Of a DNA stretch of 37,522 bases, positions 19,698 to 31,706 are shown in pieces. Each line of letters begins with the position of its first letter. Position 1 is the stretch's first letter. Source of the DNA: a virus; the IMG/VR virus record IMGVR_UViG_3300005288_000098, positions 1 to 37,522 of that record. The stretch is one strand, 5' to 3'. The translations under genes and the position numbers were made by a program. The notes beneath the pieces are model-generated. The model was not told the DNA's origin, did no database searches, and saw only the letters and a list, made by a program, of their open reading frames with translations.

Positions 19698-19720
19698 GAA
19701 AAAACCCGCGCTCGGCGGGC
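19698..19720 (-). terminator. Leftward intrinsic terminator
   Basis: Minus-strand stem CCCGC/GCGGG (19719-19715 with 19709-19705) with loop CGAGC, followed by six T residues. It separates the ATPase gene from the exonuclease gene. Confidence 0.7.
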
Positions 19721-20762: not shown

Positions 20763-20786
20763 TCAAAAAAGCCGAATAACCGGCTT
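20763..20786 (-). terminator. Leftward intrinsic terminator
   Basis: Minus-strand stem AAGCCG/CGGCTT with loop GTTATT, followed by TTTTGATT. It lies between the 72-residue gene and the mini-protein gene. Confidence 0.7.
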
Positions 20787-22821: not shown

Positions 22822-22844
22822 AAAAAAGCCGCAACGAATGCGGC
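22822..22844 (-). terminator. Leftward intrinsic terminator
   Basis: Minus-strand stem GCCGCA/TGCGGC with loop TTCGT, followed by six T residues. It lies inside the leftward operon, just before the ribosome site of the 120-residue gene. Confidence 0.75.
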
Positions 22845-22990: not shown

Positions 22991-23665
22991 TCAAAACTCA
23001 AATAAAAAAGCCGCTTGTTCGGCGGCTCGTTTGTCGATCTTGGTGATGGGTTGCATTCCCCACTGTTCGGCCATCGCGGCGGCAATGCCCGCGTAGGTGG
23101 TGCTTCGCAGCTTCCACCTGTCCGCGCTGGGCGGCAGCTTGTTCTGCCCGCTGTCGGTCTGGTTGCTCCAGCGCTCGACCAGCTTGCCGTTGTGCTGCAC
23201 CCATCGGCCGGGAAACCGGTTTGTCGGGGTCAGCGGCTTCAATCCCTTGAGCCAGAGGCAGGTAGCCTTGCTGGCGTCGTTGCCGAAGTCATACGGCTGG
23301 ATCGTCTGGTCGGGCTTGCGAATCTGAGAACTGATGCAGCCAACCGGGTTCTCCAGTGCGATCATGGGAACGGGCAGGGCAAGCAGCAGCCGGATGAAGT
23401 CCAGCGCGTCGGCCGTCATCTGCGCACGCTCCGGCCGGCGCTTGTTCCAGTGCAGGCCCGCGCTTGTCAGGTAGGTGCATGGCGGGTGGGCAATCATCAA
23501 ATCCCAGCCCTCGCCCATCACATCGCGCACATCGCCCTGATAGTGCGGGCCGGGCGAGTCCGTGGGCAACAGGTCGCAGCTCATGGCGTCATGGCCGAGG
23601 GCTGCAAAGGCGTTGCGCACGGTGCCGCTGTATTCGCAGGCCACCAAAATTCTGAGCTTTTTCAC
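22991..23665 (-). CDS. Dcm-like DNA cytosine methyltransferase family protein
   Basis: 224 residues; its ATG overlaps the upstream stop (ATGA). The N-terminus ILVACEYSGTVRNAFAALGH is the SAM-binding motif I. PPCTYLTSAG at 61-70 contains the PC nucleophile loop (C63), and IALENPVG (103-109) is the ENV-like motif VI with Pro instead of Val. The later target-recognition region is short. No cognate restriction enzyme is present, so self-protection against host restriction is the likely job. The last codons (RAAEQAAFLFE) double as an intrinsic terminator. Confidence 0.82.
   Translation of the reverse strand: MKKLRILVACEYSGTVRNAFAALGHDAMSCDLLPTDSPGPHYQGDVRDVMGEGWDLMIAHPPCTYLTSAGLHWNKRRPERAQMTADALDFIRLLLALPVPMIALENPVGCISSQIRKPDQTIQPYDFGNDASKATCLWLKGLKPLTPTNRFPGRWVQHNGKLVERWSNQTDSGQNKLPPSADRWKLRSTTYAGIAAAMAEQWGMQPITKIDKRAAEQAAFLFEF
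23003..23027 (-). terminator. Leftward intrinsic terminator embedded in the methyltransferase 3' end
   Basis: Minus-strand stem AGCCGC/GCGGCT with loop CGAACAA, followed by TTTTTATT. The hairpin and T-run are codons of the methyltransferase C-terminus, with its stop codon just after. Confidence 0.7.
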
Positions 23666-23856
23666 TTTGCAGCAGCCAGCTTCTCGAGCTTTTCAGCCGC
23701 CGCTGCATGTTCAGCAGCGGTGTAGCCGCGCACCTTCTTGCCGGTCTTTTCAGCCTTCTCGGCCAGCTTGCGGAGGTCGGCGGCGTTGCGGGCGTACTGT
23801 GCGGACAGCTGCTCGGGCGTGCATTTGAAGCGCGCTGCGATTTCTGTTTTTGTCAT
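23662..23856 (-). CDS. Small Lys/Ala-rich coiled-coil protein
   Basis: 64 residues; CGGAG precedes ATG 23856. The N-terminus TKTEIAARFKCTPEQLSAQY looks like a short helix-turn-helix-like pair. The rest is highly charged helix (NAADLRKLAEKAEKTGKKVR ... AAEHAAAAEKLEKLAAAK). It is the first conventional gene of the leftward operon after the leader, and its stop overlaps the methyltransferase start. Function unknown. Confidence 0.65.
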   Translation of the reverse strand: MTKTEIAARFKCTPEQLSAQYARNAADLRKLAEKAEKTGKKVRGYTAAEHAAAAEKLEKLAAAK

Positions 23857-23879
23857 CTCAATCTCCGGTTGTTAAAAGC

Positions 23880-23900
23880 AAAAAGCTCTCGTTAGAAAGC
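23880..23900 (-). terminator. Leader terminator in the left operon
   Basis: Minus-strand hairpin GCTTTC-TAAC-GAGAGC (one G-T wobble), followed by TTTTTGCTTTT. It sits between the candidate N-like peptide and the first conventional gene, the position of an early terminator in lambdoid left operons. Confidence 0.6.
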
Positions 23901-24003
23901 GCTTTGCTTTGCCGACATTGCCGCTGTCGGTGGGCGAAGCTGTTCAGTCCGGGAAGCATCCCGTCGCTGCCAGTTGTTGCTGGACGCGCGTCACCTTTCT
24001 TGT

Positions 24004-24126
24004 TCAGCCGGTGGACAGTGGAGCTGGGCGTCTTCCTTGCGGTGCGCCTGGGGTATCCGGTAGTTTGTTAAAAATCCTGTCGGCTACACGTCGATCCGCT
24101 TTGCCCTTGCTCCGTTTCCGGTGCAT
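24004..24126 (-). CDS. 40-residue Arg/Lys-rich peptide, first ORF from P_L, probably leaderless
   Basis: ATG 24126 begins six bases after the TATAAT of the left promoter, so transcription is expected to start at or within a base or two of the start codon. The peptide begins MHRKRSKGKADRRVADRIFN, an arginine-rich segment, and continues with a Pro-rich tail (PDTPGAPQGRRPAPLSTG). No ribosome site exists. Its position as first gene of the left operon, its basic composition and the terminators downstream recall N-type antiterminators, which use an Arg-rich helix to bind boxB RNA. It is shorter than lambda N (about 107), and no sequence identity is claimed. Confidence 0.45.
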   Translation of the reverse strand: MHRKRSKGKADRRVADRIFNKLPDTPGAPQGRRPAPLSTG

Positions 24127-24132
24127 GGCTAG

Positions 24133-24161
24133 ATTATAAGCAGACTTATAACTATGCGCAA
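24133..24161 (-). promoter_or_regulatory. Left early promoter P_L
   Basis: Minus strand: TTGCGC (24161-24156), exactly 17-bp spacer, TATAAT (24138-24133). Six bases then precede ATG 24126. An 18-bp palindrome covers the -10 and spacer, and an operator overlaps the -35. It drives the whole leftward accessory operon. Confidence 0.75.
24134..24151. promoter_or_regulatory. 18-bp perfect palindrome in P_L
   Basis: TTATAAGCAGACTTATAA: two 7-bp inverted arms around CAGA, covering most of the -10 and part of the spacer. It differs from the AACAR-N5-YTGTT operators and may bind another protein, such as the Cro-like protein, or simply reflect AT-rich promoter sequence. Confidence 0.45.
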
Positions 24162-24174
24162 CAAATCGGCTGTT
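24160..24174. promoter_or_regulatory. Operator O_L1
   Basis: AACAA-ATCGG-CTGTT, the same as the O_R2 site in all ten arm positions. It overlaps the -35 of P_L, so a bound repressor would block RNA polymerase. Confidence 0.6.
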
Positions 24175-24233: not shown

Positions 24234-24261
24234 GGAAAAAAGCCGCCTCTGATGGGCGGCT
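24234..24261 (-). terminator. Terminator after the repressor gene
   Basis: Minus-strand stem AGCCGCC/GGCGGCT with loop CATCAGA, followed by TTTTTCC. It ends the repressor transcript before P_L, isolating repressor expression from the left operon. Confidence 0.78.
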
Positions 24262-24296: not shown

Positions 24297-24761
24297 TTAT
24301 TGGAAGAGAAAGGGTTGCCTTTGGCGCGGCTCGGGCAGGCGCATGAGATAGCTGATGTCGGGCAGGATTGAATCCGCCTGATCGGGGTCGTCAATCAGGC
24401 TTTGCAGTAGCGACCCGACCGCCTTGCGCTTCGATGGATTCAGCGGCGCCAGCAGTTCGGCCAGCATGTGTATCACGCTTGGCGGACTGGCATCTTCCGT
24501 GCATGGCCGCTCAGTGATGGCCGGCGCACCTTCCACATTCTTGAACATGTCGCCTTTTCCGCTGCTGAGCCAGTCCGGGTCCACGCCGGTTGCCCTGGCG
24601 ATTTTCACCGTCAGCATCGAAGCGCCAGCCTCGCGCTCGGCCTCGGAGATATTGGCCTGGGTGCAGCCGACAGCCGCCGCCAGCGCTGCTTGTGTCATGT
24701 TCGCAGACTTCCGGGCGCGCAAGACTCGCAAGCCGAAAGCGGTTCTGGGTGTTTTGGTCAT
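24297..24761 (-). CDS. cI: CI-like XRE-family repressor without peptidase domain
   Basis: 154 residues. Residues about 8-62 are a Xre/Cro-type HTH domain (LRVLRARKSANMTQAALAAA, VGCTQANISEAEREAGASML). The C-terminal half (IHMLAELLAPLNPSKRKAVG...) is helical and lacks the LexA/S24 Ala-Gly site and Ser-Lys dyad, so RecA-dependent self-cleavage is not expected. Induction would need another route. It is divergent from the Cro-like gene, with three operator-like sites between. No ribosome site is visible before the ATG, and a weak TAATAC lies about nine bases upstream, so the message may be leaderless or nearly so. Confidence 0.85.
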   Translation of the reverse strand: MTKTPRTAFGLRVLRARKSANMTQAALAAAVGCTQANISEAEREAGASMLTVKIARATGVDPDWLSSGKGDMFKNVEGAPAITERPCTEDASPPSVIHMLAELLAPLNPSKRKAVGSLLQSLIDDPDQADSILPDISYLMRLPEPRQRQPFLFQ

Positions 24762-24766
24762 GGCGT

Positions 24767-24821
24767 CACAGTATTATTTTTAAGAACAAGTTGACTGTTT
24801 TTTTTGAACAAGCCCGCTGAT
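24767..24821. promoter_or_regulatory. Right operator region: O_R3, O_R2, O_R1
   Basis: Three sites fit AACAR-N5-YTGTT or its reverse. O_R3 at 24767-24781 is CACAG-TATTA-TTTTT (8/10, next to the cI start). O_R2 at 24785-24799 is AACAA-GTTGA-CTGTT (10/10). O_R1 at 24807-24821 is AACAA-GCCCG-CTGAT (9/10, overlapping the P_R -10). Spacing between O_R2 and O_R1 is 22 bp, about two helical turns. Confidence 0.6.
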
Positions 24822-24826
24822 ATAAT
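24818..24826 (+). promoter_or_regulatory. Right early promoter P_R (extended -10)
   Basis: TGATATAAT is a perfect TATAAT with the TGN extension. No good -35 lies at 17 bp (a T-run instead); TTGACT at 24791 is too far at 24 bp. The ATG of the Cro-like gene begins six bases after the hexamer. Confidence 0.7.
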
Positions 24827-24832
24827 GCGGCC

Positions 24833-25051
24833 ATGACCCACAAGATCAACTGGCAAACCACTGTTTTGGACCTCAAATCCAGCGGCTGGACTGAAACCAA
24901 ACTCGCCGCGCTCTGCGGCTGCACGCAAGCCAATATCAACCTCATGGCCCAGGGGCTGAGTAAAAACCCCCGGTACAGCATCGGCGCGCCGCTCGTCGAG
25001 TTGCACAAATCCATGCTGGCTGTGCGCAGACGCACAAGCCAGGCCGCCTAG
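24833..25051 (+). CDS. cro: Cro-like HTH protein, predicted leaderless
   Basis: 72 residues. A short HTH lies at about 20-41 (TETKLAALCGCTQANINLMA), sharing CGCTQANI with VGCTQANI in the repressor, so the two may recognise related DNA. The gene is divergent from cI, first in the right operon, and its ATG is six bases after TATAAT with no ribosome site, hence probably translated from a leaderless message. By analogy it represses cI and later dampens early promoters. Confidence 0.78.
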   Translation: MTHKINWQTTVLDLKSSGWTETKLAALCGCTQANINLMAQGLSKNPRYSIGAPLVELHKSMLAVRRRTSQAA

Positions 25052-28689: not shown

Positions 28690-28892
28690 ACTGCGCAACC
28701 TGCACATCGTGGTCATTGAAAACTAGCCCACTGGCGCGTTCTGGCATGGCTAGCTGCGTTCATTTGCAGCGGTTCGAGTACTGGCCGCCAAGACACGCTT
28801 GCGGCCGTTATACGCCCGCTGCTGCCGAGGTGGCTTCCGCCCGGCTGGCCTGGCTGGGGAAGATTGACAAAAAACACAAGGGGATGAAATGA
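28686..28892 (+). CDS. Small Cys-rich putative zinc-finger protein
   Basis: 68 residues from GTG 28686 (GTGA overlap). NCATCTSW near the N-terminus, then MASCVHLQ and RHACGRYTP give four spaced cysteines (CxxC...C...C), a likely zinc site. It resembles small Cys-rich phage proteins found near NinG/NinB genes. The stop overlaps the next start (ATGA at 28889). Confidence 0.65.
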   Translation: MNCATCTSWSLKTSPLARSGMASCVHLQRFEYWPPRHACGRYTPAAAEVASARLAWLGKIDKKHKGMK

Positions 28893-29170
28893 AACTGAAT
28901 TGCAAAGTCGGTGATCTGGCCGTGGTCATCAATGGAGAAAACGCTGGCCGCATAGTCAAGGTTGTGCTTCCATCAAAAAGGCAGGCGAACTGGTGGCTGG
29001 TGGACGTCATTGGGTCGGAGGGGGTTGGGTTTGATCTCGATGGAAATCGCGCGAAATCGAACATCGGACATATCGCAGATAAGCGGCTGCGCCCGATCCG
29101 CGACCAGCCAGGCGATGACGAGACTTTGGCTTGGGCTGGCCTGCCGCACGATTGCGGGGTGGCAGCATGA
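28889..29170 (+). CDS. Small beta-barrel-like (KOW/SH3-like) protein
   Basis: 93 residues; AAGGGG precedes ATG 28889. The sequence LNCKVGDLAVVINGENAGRI, followed by VKVVLPSKRQANWWLVDVIG, resembles a KOW/SH3-like barrel (GDLAxVxxGxNxGxIVxV) that often binds RNA or proteins. The C-terminal end is acidic. Common in phage early regions; partner unknown. Confidence 0.68.
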   Translation: MKLNCKVGDLAVVINGENAGRIVKVVLPSKRQANWWLVDVIGSEGVGFDLDGNRAKSNIGHIADKRLRPIRDQPGDDETLAWAGLPHDCGVAA

Positions 29171-30463: not shown

Positions 30464-30867
30464 GCGAAGGCAAGCAGTATTTCCGGCTCGTCCATGCCGA
30501 GGCGCGCCGCCGTGCTGCTCAGGCTTGTATGGACGCCCCGGACGGGCATATCACGACGATTGCAGAGCCAACCCGCACGCTTGACCAGAACGCGGCTCAG
30601 TGGCCGATCTTGCAAGCCTTTGCTGAGCAACTGGAATGGCCGGTGAATGGCCGCATGGAGCGCCTGACCGATACCGAGTGGAAGGACATCCTGACGTGCG
30701 CGTTTAAGCAGGAGGTCGCCAGGGTGTCGCCGGGGCTGGATGGCGGCATGGTGCTGCTGGGCGCCAGGACTTCCAAGTTCGGCAAGAAGCAGTTCAGCGA
30801 GTGGCTGGAATTCCTTTATGCAACGGCAGCAGACCGAAATGTCGTGGTGTACGACGATCAAAAATGA
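30460..30867 (+). CDS. ninB: NinB (Orf-like) recombination mediator
   Basis: 135 residues from ATG 30460 (ATGA overlap). LDQNAAQWPILQAFAEQLEW, NGRMERLTDTEWKDILTCAF and GGMVLLGARTSKFGKKQFSE match the lambda NinB/Orf family. That family binds SSB and single-stranded DNA and stands in for RecFOR in loading recombinases. It ends the rightward early operon. Confidence 0.9.
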   Translation: MSEGKQYFRLVHAEARRRAAQACMDAPDGHITTIAEPTRTLDQNAAQWPILQAFAEQLEWPVNGRMERLTDTEWKDILTCAFKQEVARVSPGLDGGMVLLGARTSKFGKKQFSEWLEFLYATAADRNVVVYDDQK

Positions 30868-31160
30868 TAGCTGATTTGCACCATCAAATATAGCTCAAAC
30901 CCACGCAAGATATGGGCAACATGCTACAAAATAAGGTGCAAATAGTTACCCGCACAAGCACATCCAAAGGTAAAATGAACACACGCTACGCTCGATTGTG
31001 AGTCCCGTCATTACCGGCAACTTGAGCCGGGTCACTCCGGGTAAAGAGTGGCAGCTTTCAGCGGGTGCGATCCGTTATCAAGCAACTCGCGAACGGGTAG
31101 GCTCTGCCGCAAGGTAAATTCCCCAAGAGCGCTTTTCGGATTAACCAGGGAGAAGAAAGA
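30868..31160 (+). other. Non-coding region before terminase: inverted repeat and tandem hairpins
   Basis: No convincing gene. TTTGCACC (30875-30882) and GGTGCAAA (30935-30942) are inverted 52 bases apart. A weak promoter-like TTACCC-19-TAAAAT lies at 30946-30976. GAGTCCCG...CGGGTCACTC (31000-31037, two-base bulge) and a nested hairpin ATCCGTT/AACGGGT (31070-31098) inside GGCAG/CTGCC (31050-31108) suggest a structured leader for the late transcript. This is where a late promoter, antitermination leader or pac-related signal would be expected. Confidence 0.45.
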
Positions 31161-31706
31161 ATGGCAGCGAAGAAACCAGTGAAGGCGGTTGCAGTGAAGA
31201 AGGTGGTGAAGAAGCCGGCGCCCGCCAAGGCGCCGACAACCGCCGAGCTGCTGGGCAAGGTGGGGATTGATGTGATTTGCGCCCGTGTGGCCGATTGCCA
31301 TTTCCTGGAAAACATCGCCAGCGACTGTGGCGTGTCTCGCGGCTCACTGGTGAAGTGGCTTTCCTCTGTGGAAAACGCTGCCTTGTACGCCTGCGCGCGC
31401 GAGGCTCAGGCTGACAAAATGGCCGAGGACATCCTGCGAATCGCCGACGATGGCGCAAATGACACATACCAGACGGAAAACGGAGAGGCGACGAATCACG
31501 ATGTGATTGCGCGCTCGCGCCTGAGGGTGGATGCGCGCAAATGGCTGGCTGCCAAGATGGCGCCCAAGAAGTACGGCGAGAAGCTGGCCGTGGTGGGTGA
31601 TCCGCTGAACCCGATTGAGACGAGATCGACCCTCAATGTCACAGGGCTGTCCACTGCAACCCTGGTCGAAATCATGGCGGCCAAAGATGCAACTGAGTCC
31701 CGATGA
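31161..31706 (+). CDS. terS: Terminase small subunit
   Basis: 181 residues; AGGGAG precedes ATG 31161. A Lys/Ala/Pro-rich basic N-terminus is followed by an HTH (LENIASDCGVSRGSLVKWLS) for recognising packaging DNA. A helical region contains ARSRLRVDARKWLAAKMAPK with KYGEKL, typical of this small-subunit family. It directly precedes terL (20-base overlap). It would choose the start site for headful packaging. Confidence 0.88.
   Translation: MAAKKPVKAVAVKKVVKKPAPAKAPTTAELLGKVGIDVICARVADCHFLENIASDCGVSRGSLVKWLSSVENAALYACAREAQADKMAEDILRIADDGANDTYQTENGEATNHDVIARSRLRVDARKWLAAKMAPKKYGEKLAVVGDPLNPIETRSTLNVTGLSTATLVEIMAAKDATESR

Follow-up and report, generated by a model that had tools for sequence, protein, structure and literature searches.

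A 40-codon frame with a leaderless layout opening the predicted P_L transcript in a P22-like phage: a tentative candidate for a minimal antiterminator

How does RNA polymerase reach the end of a left operon that is interrupted by a chain of terminators, in a phage with neither a recognisable N nor a recognisable put? The locus considered here lies in a virus record of 37,522 bases, which was analysed over its whole length (the window). The window encodes a P22-like head module (portal, scaffold, coat and terminase), a DnaB-like helicase and its O-like partner, NinB, NinG and a divergent cI/cro pair, which is best explained as a temperate, P22-like phage in which the region around 24126 is the start of the P_L transcript. 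In searches from which very near relatives were left out, no relatives were found through cI, cro, the leader DNA, the 64-residue protein encoded next on the left or a 68-codon extended frame; a single Bacteroidaceae match of cI among genome contigs was judged spurious. One contig (L082) matches the O-like and DnaB genes at 83% identity and ends just before the immunity region. Elsewhere in the window, about 300 nt between NinB and the terminase small subunit (30865-31165) are free of genes and contain a long stem (GCTGATTTGCACC / GGTGCAAATAGTT) along with other hairpins. No protein resembling Q was recognised that would account for late control. In the right early operon, 28889-29170 encodes a protein of 93 residues whose match to the KOW domain is weak (E 0.003) and does not reach the curated cut-off.

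The features around the early promoters are as follows.

24833..25051, plus strand: cro-like gene, TATAAT-N6-ATG, leaderless layout
24821..24826, plus strand: P_R -10, TATAAT, extended (TGA before)
24807..24821, unstranded: second O_R operator, AACAAGCCCGCTGAT
24785..24799, unstranded: O_R operator, AACAAGTTGACTGTT
24297..24761, minus strand: cI-like HTH repressor, 154 aa, TACTGT-N6-ATG, probably leaderless
24241..24261, minus strand: terminator 3' of cI, upstream of P_L
24160..24174, unstranded: O_L operator, AACAAATCGGCTGTT, overlapping the P_L -35 and recovered with a matrix from P_R only
24156..24161, minus strand: P_L -35, TTGCGC, 17-nt spacer
24134..24151, unstranded: 18-bp perfect inverted repeat over the P_L -10, TTATAAG-N4-CTTATAA, the only copy in the window
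24133..24138, minus strand: P_L -10, TATAAT, 6 nt before the ATG of the 40-codon frame
24004..24126, minus strand (reads 24126 to 24004): 40-codon frame, product MHRKRSKGKADRRVADRIFNKLPDTPGAPQGRRPAPLSTG and stop, ATG at the predicted P_L +1

Along 5.4 kb of the minus strand (24300-18860), a single sigma-70 match exceeds the threshold, TTGCGC-17-TATAAT at 24138, and the 40-codon frame is the earliest ATG frame after it. This agrees with a previous reading, made from the sequence only, that had named it the first gene of the left operon, a term that assumes translation. Exact matches to the operator AACARNNNRNCTGTT occur in the window solely at 24160-24174 and 24785-24799. When the matrix is trained on the two P_R sites alone, the P_L site ranks fourth among distinct sites in 37.5 kb, outscored only by the training pair and by one arm of a terminator at 23005. 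Given this shared operator sequence, P_L most likely serves as an early promoter under repressor control; the inverted repeat over its -10 is possibly a second operator or the target of another regulator.

Over the whole window, TATAAT-N5-7-ATG is found at two places, as TATAATCTAGCCATG at the 40-codon frame and as TATAATGCGGCCATG at cro, where 0.06 occurrences are expected, and no shuffled sequence had two (all shuffle-based counts take dinucleotide composition as the null). The cI start reads TACTGT-GACGCC-ATG. A Shine-Dalgarno sequence is absent at the 40-codon frame, cro and cI, and the next gene to the left has GGAG. The 40-codon frame thus has the two marks of a leaderless mRNA, a -10 hexamer 5-7 nt before the start codon and no Shine-Dalgarno sequence; by this spacing the P_L transcript most likely begins at the A of the ATG, which would make the frame leaderless, in common with cro and probably cI. 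The mRNA of lambda cI made from P_RM is leaderless, and the distance of about 6 nt between -10 and ATG without a Shine-Dalgarno sequence matches known messages of this kind; unlike the known cases, the layout is present here at both divergent early promoters, P_L and P_R, and probably at the cI promoter as well. A -10 element adjacent to the reading frame is an established type of leaderless expression, as surveyed in Deinococcus-Thermus (PMC12340547). Four related phages (L083, L111, L192 and L193) have HTH regulators, cro and/or cI, with leaderless-looking starts, where a -10-like hexamer stands 5-7 nt before the ATG (the window counterpart is 24762-24832).

Downstream of the frame, the left operon contains the following features.

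23857..24003, minus strand: second part of the P_L leader, untranslated, with several stem-loops and a folding z of -2.3
23875..23910, minus strand: A/U-rich 16-bp terminator-like hairpin closing the leader
23662..23856, minus strand: next gene, 64 aa, with Shine-Dalgarno sequence, three predicted helices, orphan
23009..23027, minus strand: intrinsic terminator at the 3' end of the DNA methyltransferase gene
22828..22844, minus strand: intrinsic terminator in a gene gap
20770..20785, minus strand: intrinsic terminator in a gene gap
19704..19720, minus strand: intrinsic terminator after the AAA-ATPase gene

A strict terminator was defined as a stem of at least 6 pairs, at least 4 of them G-C, followed by 4 T in 5 positions. 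The several intrinsic terminators that had been supposed to lie downstream in this operon are indeed there: its sense strand holds four strict ones, all at gene ends or in gaps, against 0.25 expected, and none of 40 shuffles reaches four. The sense strand of the right early operon has none. In relatives sharing the AAA-ATPase gene, the corresponding stretch has 0-2 strict terminators, with the exception of the low-GC L212, which has four. As four terminators stand in series and no second promoter is recognisable, read-through of the left operon calls for an explanation. The P_L leader is the natural place for a determinant of read-through, and the start of the P_L RNA may carry such a feature, either as a tiny peptide or as the RNA itself; upstream of the first strict terminator are the 40-codon frame, the leader RNA, the 64-residue protein and the methyltransferase. 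The co-occurrence of the terminators with an unusual leader is suggestive, and concerns a single phage.

Is the 40-codon frame a gene? The reading frame exists as described, on the minus strand; on the plus strand of 24004-24126 the corresponding frame contains a stop. Its product does have the basic N-terminus ascribed to it, with 8 Arg/Lys in 17 residues, a density equalled by 2 of the 144 ATG frames of 25-60 aa in the window, and over all 40 residues its Arg/Lys content is in the top 5% of these frames. Modelled from its sequence alone, the peptide is predicted to contain a helix at residues 8-21, with high confidence at residues 11-20, and a basic tail, which would be compatible with an RNA-binding peptide and is not specific for one. 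The sequence-only reading of the frame as a gene was not confirmed. Forty open codons from the same position occur in 34% of dinucleotide-shuffled leaders, so that the length is within chance; in codon score the frame ranks at the 3rd percentile among true 40-codon coding windows and at the median among windows read out of frame, and GC3 is 0.51, against 0.65-0.87 in 16 training genes. The profile search proposed with that reading found no match to the peptide among phage proteins in PHROGs (E up to 1) or in Pfam (E up to 1), nor was there one in PDB (E up to 10) or by tblastn in phages (E up to 10). The same frame was not found in relatives by a TATAAT-N-ATG scan of 271 loci or by a scan of first genes. 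Two of the relatives that share the AAA-ATPase gene begin their left operon differently: L192 with a gene whose product I read from its sequence as Arc-like, and L193 with a frame of 204 codons that contains an internal start preceded by a Shine-Dalgarno sequence.

At the supposed terminator of 23880-23900 a hairpin is present (23875-23910, 16 bp), which is A/U-rich and falls short of the strict G-C requirement. The untranslated half of the leader folds better than shuffles, an excess driven by this terminal hairpin (z -3.3), and the half covered by the frame folds no better than shuffles (z -0.3). No element common to the P_L and P_R transcripts, or to the late leader, was found. Matches to boxA have 2 mismatches at best, which is the chance level, and the one GNRA hairpin of the left leader (+2 to +19) lies inside the frame and is missing from a longer fold of that region. 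A put-like RNA, the alternative originally offered to the peptide, was examined by asking whether the leader belongs to the HK022 put family, and found no support there: a covariance model (R1) built from 12 putL/putR RNAs scores HK022 putL at 96 bits and putR at 70 bits, both being in its training set, and gives no match to the leader even at E 10 without filters. Rfam returned nothing above the gathering score. When the leader is aligned to the HK022 P_L region, the sole good match is a U-rich hairpin downstream of putL, not put itself (score 28, against 17.5 with sd 2.4 for shuffles, of which 1 in 300 was as good). It pairs the 23875-23910 hairpin with positions 4185-4240 of L273, just downstream of putL, and is likely a matter of chance or of a common terminator type.

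These observations can be set beside the known systems. The arrangement is like that of lambda N, P22 gp24 and phi21 N in that the putative first gene of the left operon encodes an N-terminus of arginine-rich composition and terminators lie downstream in the operon. Unlike lambda N, the peptide has 40 residues instead of about 107 and no sequence match, there is no nut-like element shared by P_L and P_R, the right arm is without strict terminators and the start is leaderless. Beyond its RNA-binding part, lambda N has separate parts that bind NusA and RNA polymerase, and 40 residues in all are too short for these. Similarity to known N families is likewise absent (PHROGs, Pfam, PDB and phages by tblastn), as are nut sites in both early transcripts. 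The peptide could work in an N-like way by position and composition, and is not of the N family by sequence, size or sites. The HK022-type put RNA is about 70 nt long with two stem-loops, and similar putL and putR follow both early promoters (PMC9378689). The leader resembles it in following P_L directly in a phage where no N is recognisable, and differs in having no match to put in sequence or structure and no similar element after P_R; judged from its sequence, the leader is not a put RNA. A short 5' frame followed by hairpins also recalls the leader peptides of attenuated operons, from which it differs by the absence of control codons and by the long gap to the terminator-like hairpin.

My preferred reading, held tentatively, is that the small basic peptide acts as an antiterminator of the left arm only. 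RNA polymerase would start on the A of the ATG or beside it, making the 40-codon frame a leaderless mRNA as is proposed for cro at P_R, and the repressor would hold P_L through O_L. With one recognisable promoter and at least four terminators at gene boundaries, the polymerase would have to become terminator-resistant soon after P_L. The peptide, made at once, would bind the P_L leader RNA and/or the polymerase, in the manner of a much reduced lambda N and without relationship to it; a system confined to the left would not need an element shared by P_L and P_R, given that strict terminators are absent from the right arm. The TATAAT-N5-7-ATG pattern at this frame and cro alone, an O_L recovered from O_R sites, the sole strong promoter over 5.4 kb, the terminators that are numerous on the left, absent on the right and mostly few in relatives with the AAA gene, and the basic N-terminus with its predicted helix and tail all argue for this. 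Against it stand the absent homologues, the codon usage, the chance-range length, the missing P_R partner, boxA at chance, the GNRA hairpin confined to the frame and the other first genes of L192 and L193. Of the earlier idea of a minimal antiterminator, then, a frame with a basic product first on the P_L transcript and terminators downstream have stood, and the ATG at the predicted +1 fits with it; no property specific to N was recovered. That the peptide is a complete, processive left-arm antiterminator, unrelated to N and without nut sites shared by the arms, I consider doubtful.

The terminators may, however, merely grade expression. The region could be an ordinary 5' leader without processive antitermination, in which partial terminators set the level of the left operon and the frame is a by-product of an AUG at +1, a possibility that I hold about as tentatively as the peptide. 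The chance-range length, the codon usage resembling non-coding sequence and the relatives that do without such a frame are in its favour, but the exact coincidence of an ATG with the predicted +1, at P_L and again at P_R, goes far beyond chance, and four serial terminators without a second recognisable promoter would leave little distal expression. Rather unlikely is a cis-acting leader RNA (24126-23857) that works on RNA polymerase, put-like in effect and unrelated in sequence, with the frame incidental or shaping the folding. It would account for the folding of the untranslated half, for terminators confined to the left operon and for the codon usage, which argues against coding; the put model without a match, a P_R transcript without a partner element and an ordinary fold in the frame half weigh against it. 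More doubtful than a complete peptide antiterminator is attenuation, where translation of the leaderless frame would decide whether the 23875-23910 hairpin or rho stops transcription and the frame would serve as a sensor of the state of translation. In line with this, a short frame is followed by stem-loops and a terminator-like hairpin, all ahead of the first gene that has a Shine-Dalgarno sequence, yet there is no run of regulatory codons, the hairpin fails the strict definition, and about 93 nt separate it from the stop codon, too far for a direct touch by a ribosome at the stop. Least probable is an antiterminator role for the helical, basic 64-residue protein of the next gene (23662-23856). 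This rival candidate for an early regulator has phage-like codon usage, a Shine-Dalgarno sequence and a confident three-helix model from the single sequence, and it is encoded upstream of all four strict terminators; it has no homologue and no significant match in a fold search, and its gene sits behind the 23875-23910 hairpin. These gradings are judgements, and the evidence does not separate the peptide from the ordinary leader. Taken together, read-through brought about by the early left transcript, be it by peptide, RNA or 64-residue protein, has about an even chance of being correct.

Should the peptide or the leader RNA work as proposed, it would explain the passage through serial terminators in a phage where neither N nor put is recognisable, and antiterminators would be known at a smaller size than before; a complete peptide antiterminator would be among the smallest in phages. 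A terminator-rich left arm beside a terminator-free right arm offers a clean setting for reporter tests. Independent of antitermination, a leaderless layout at the early promoters on both sides is an unusual arrangement, and small first genes of this layout are easily missed when immunity regions are annotated.
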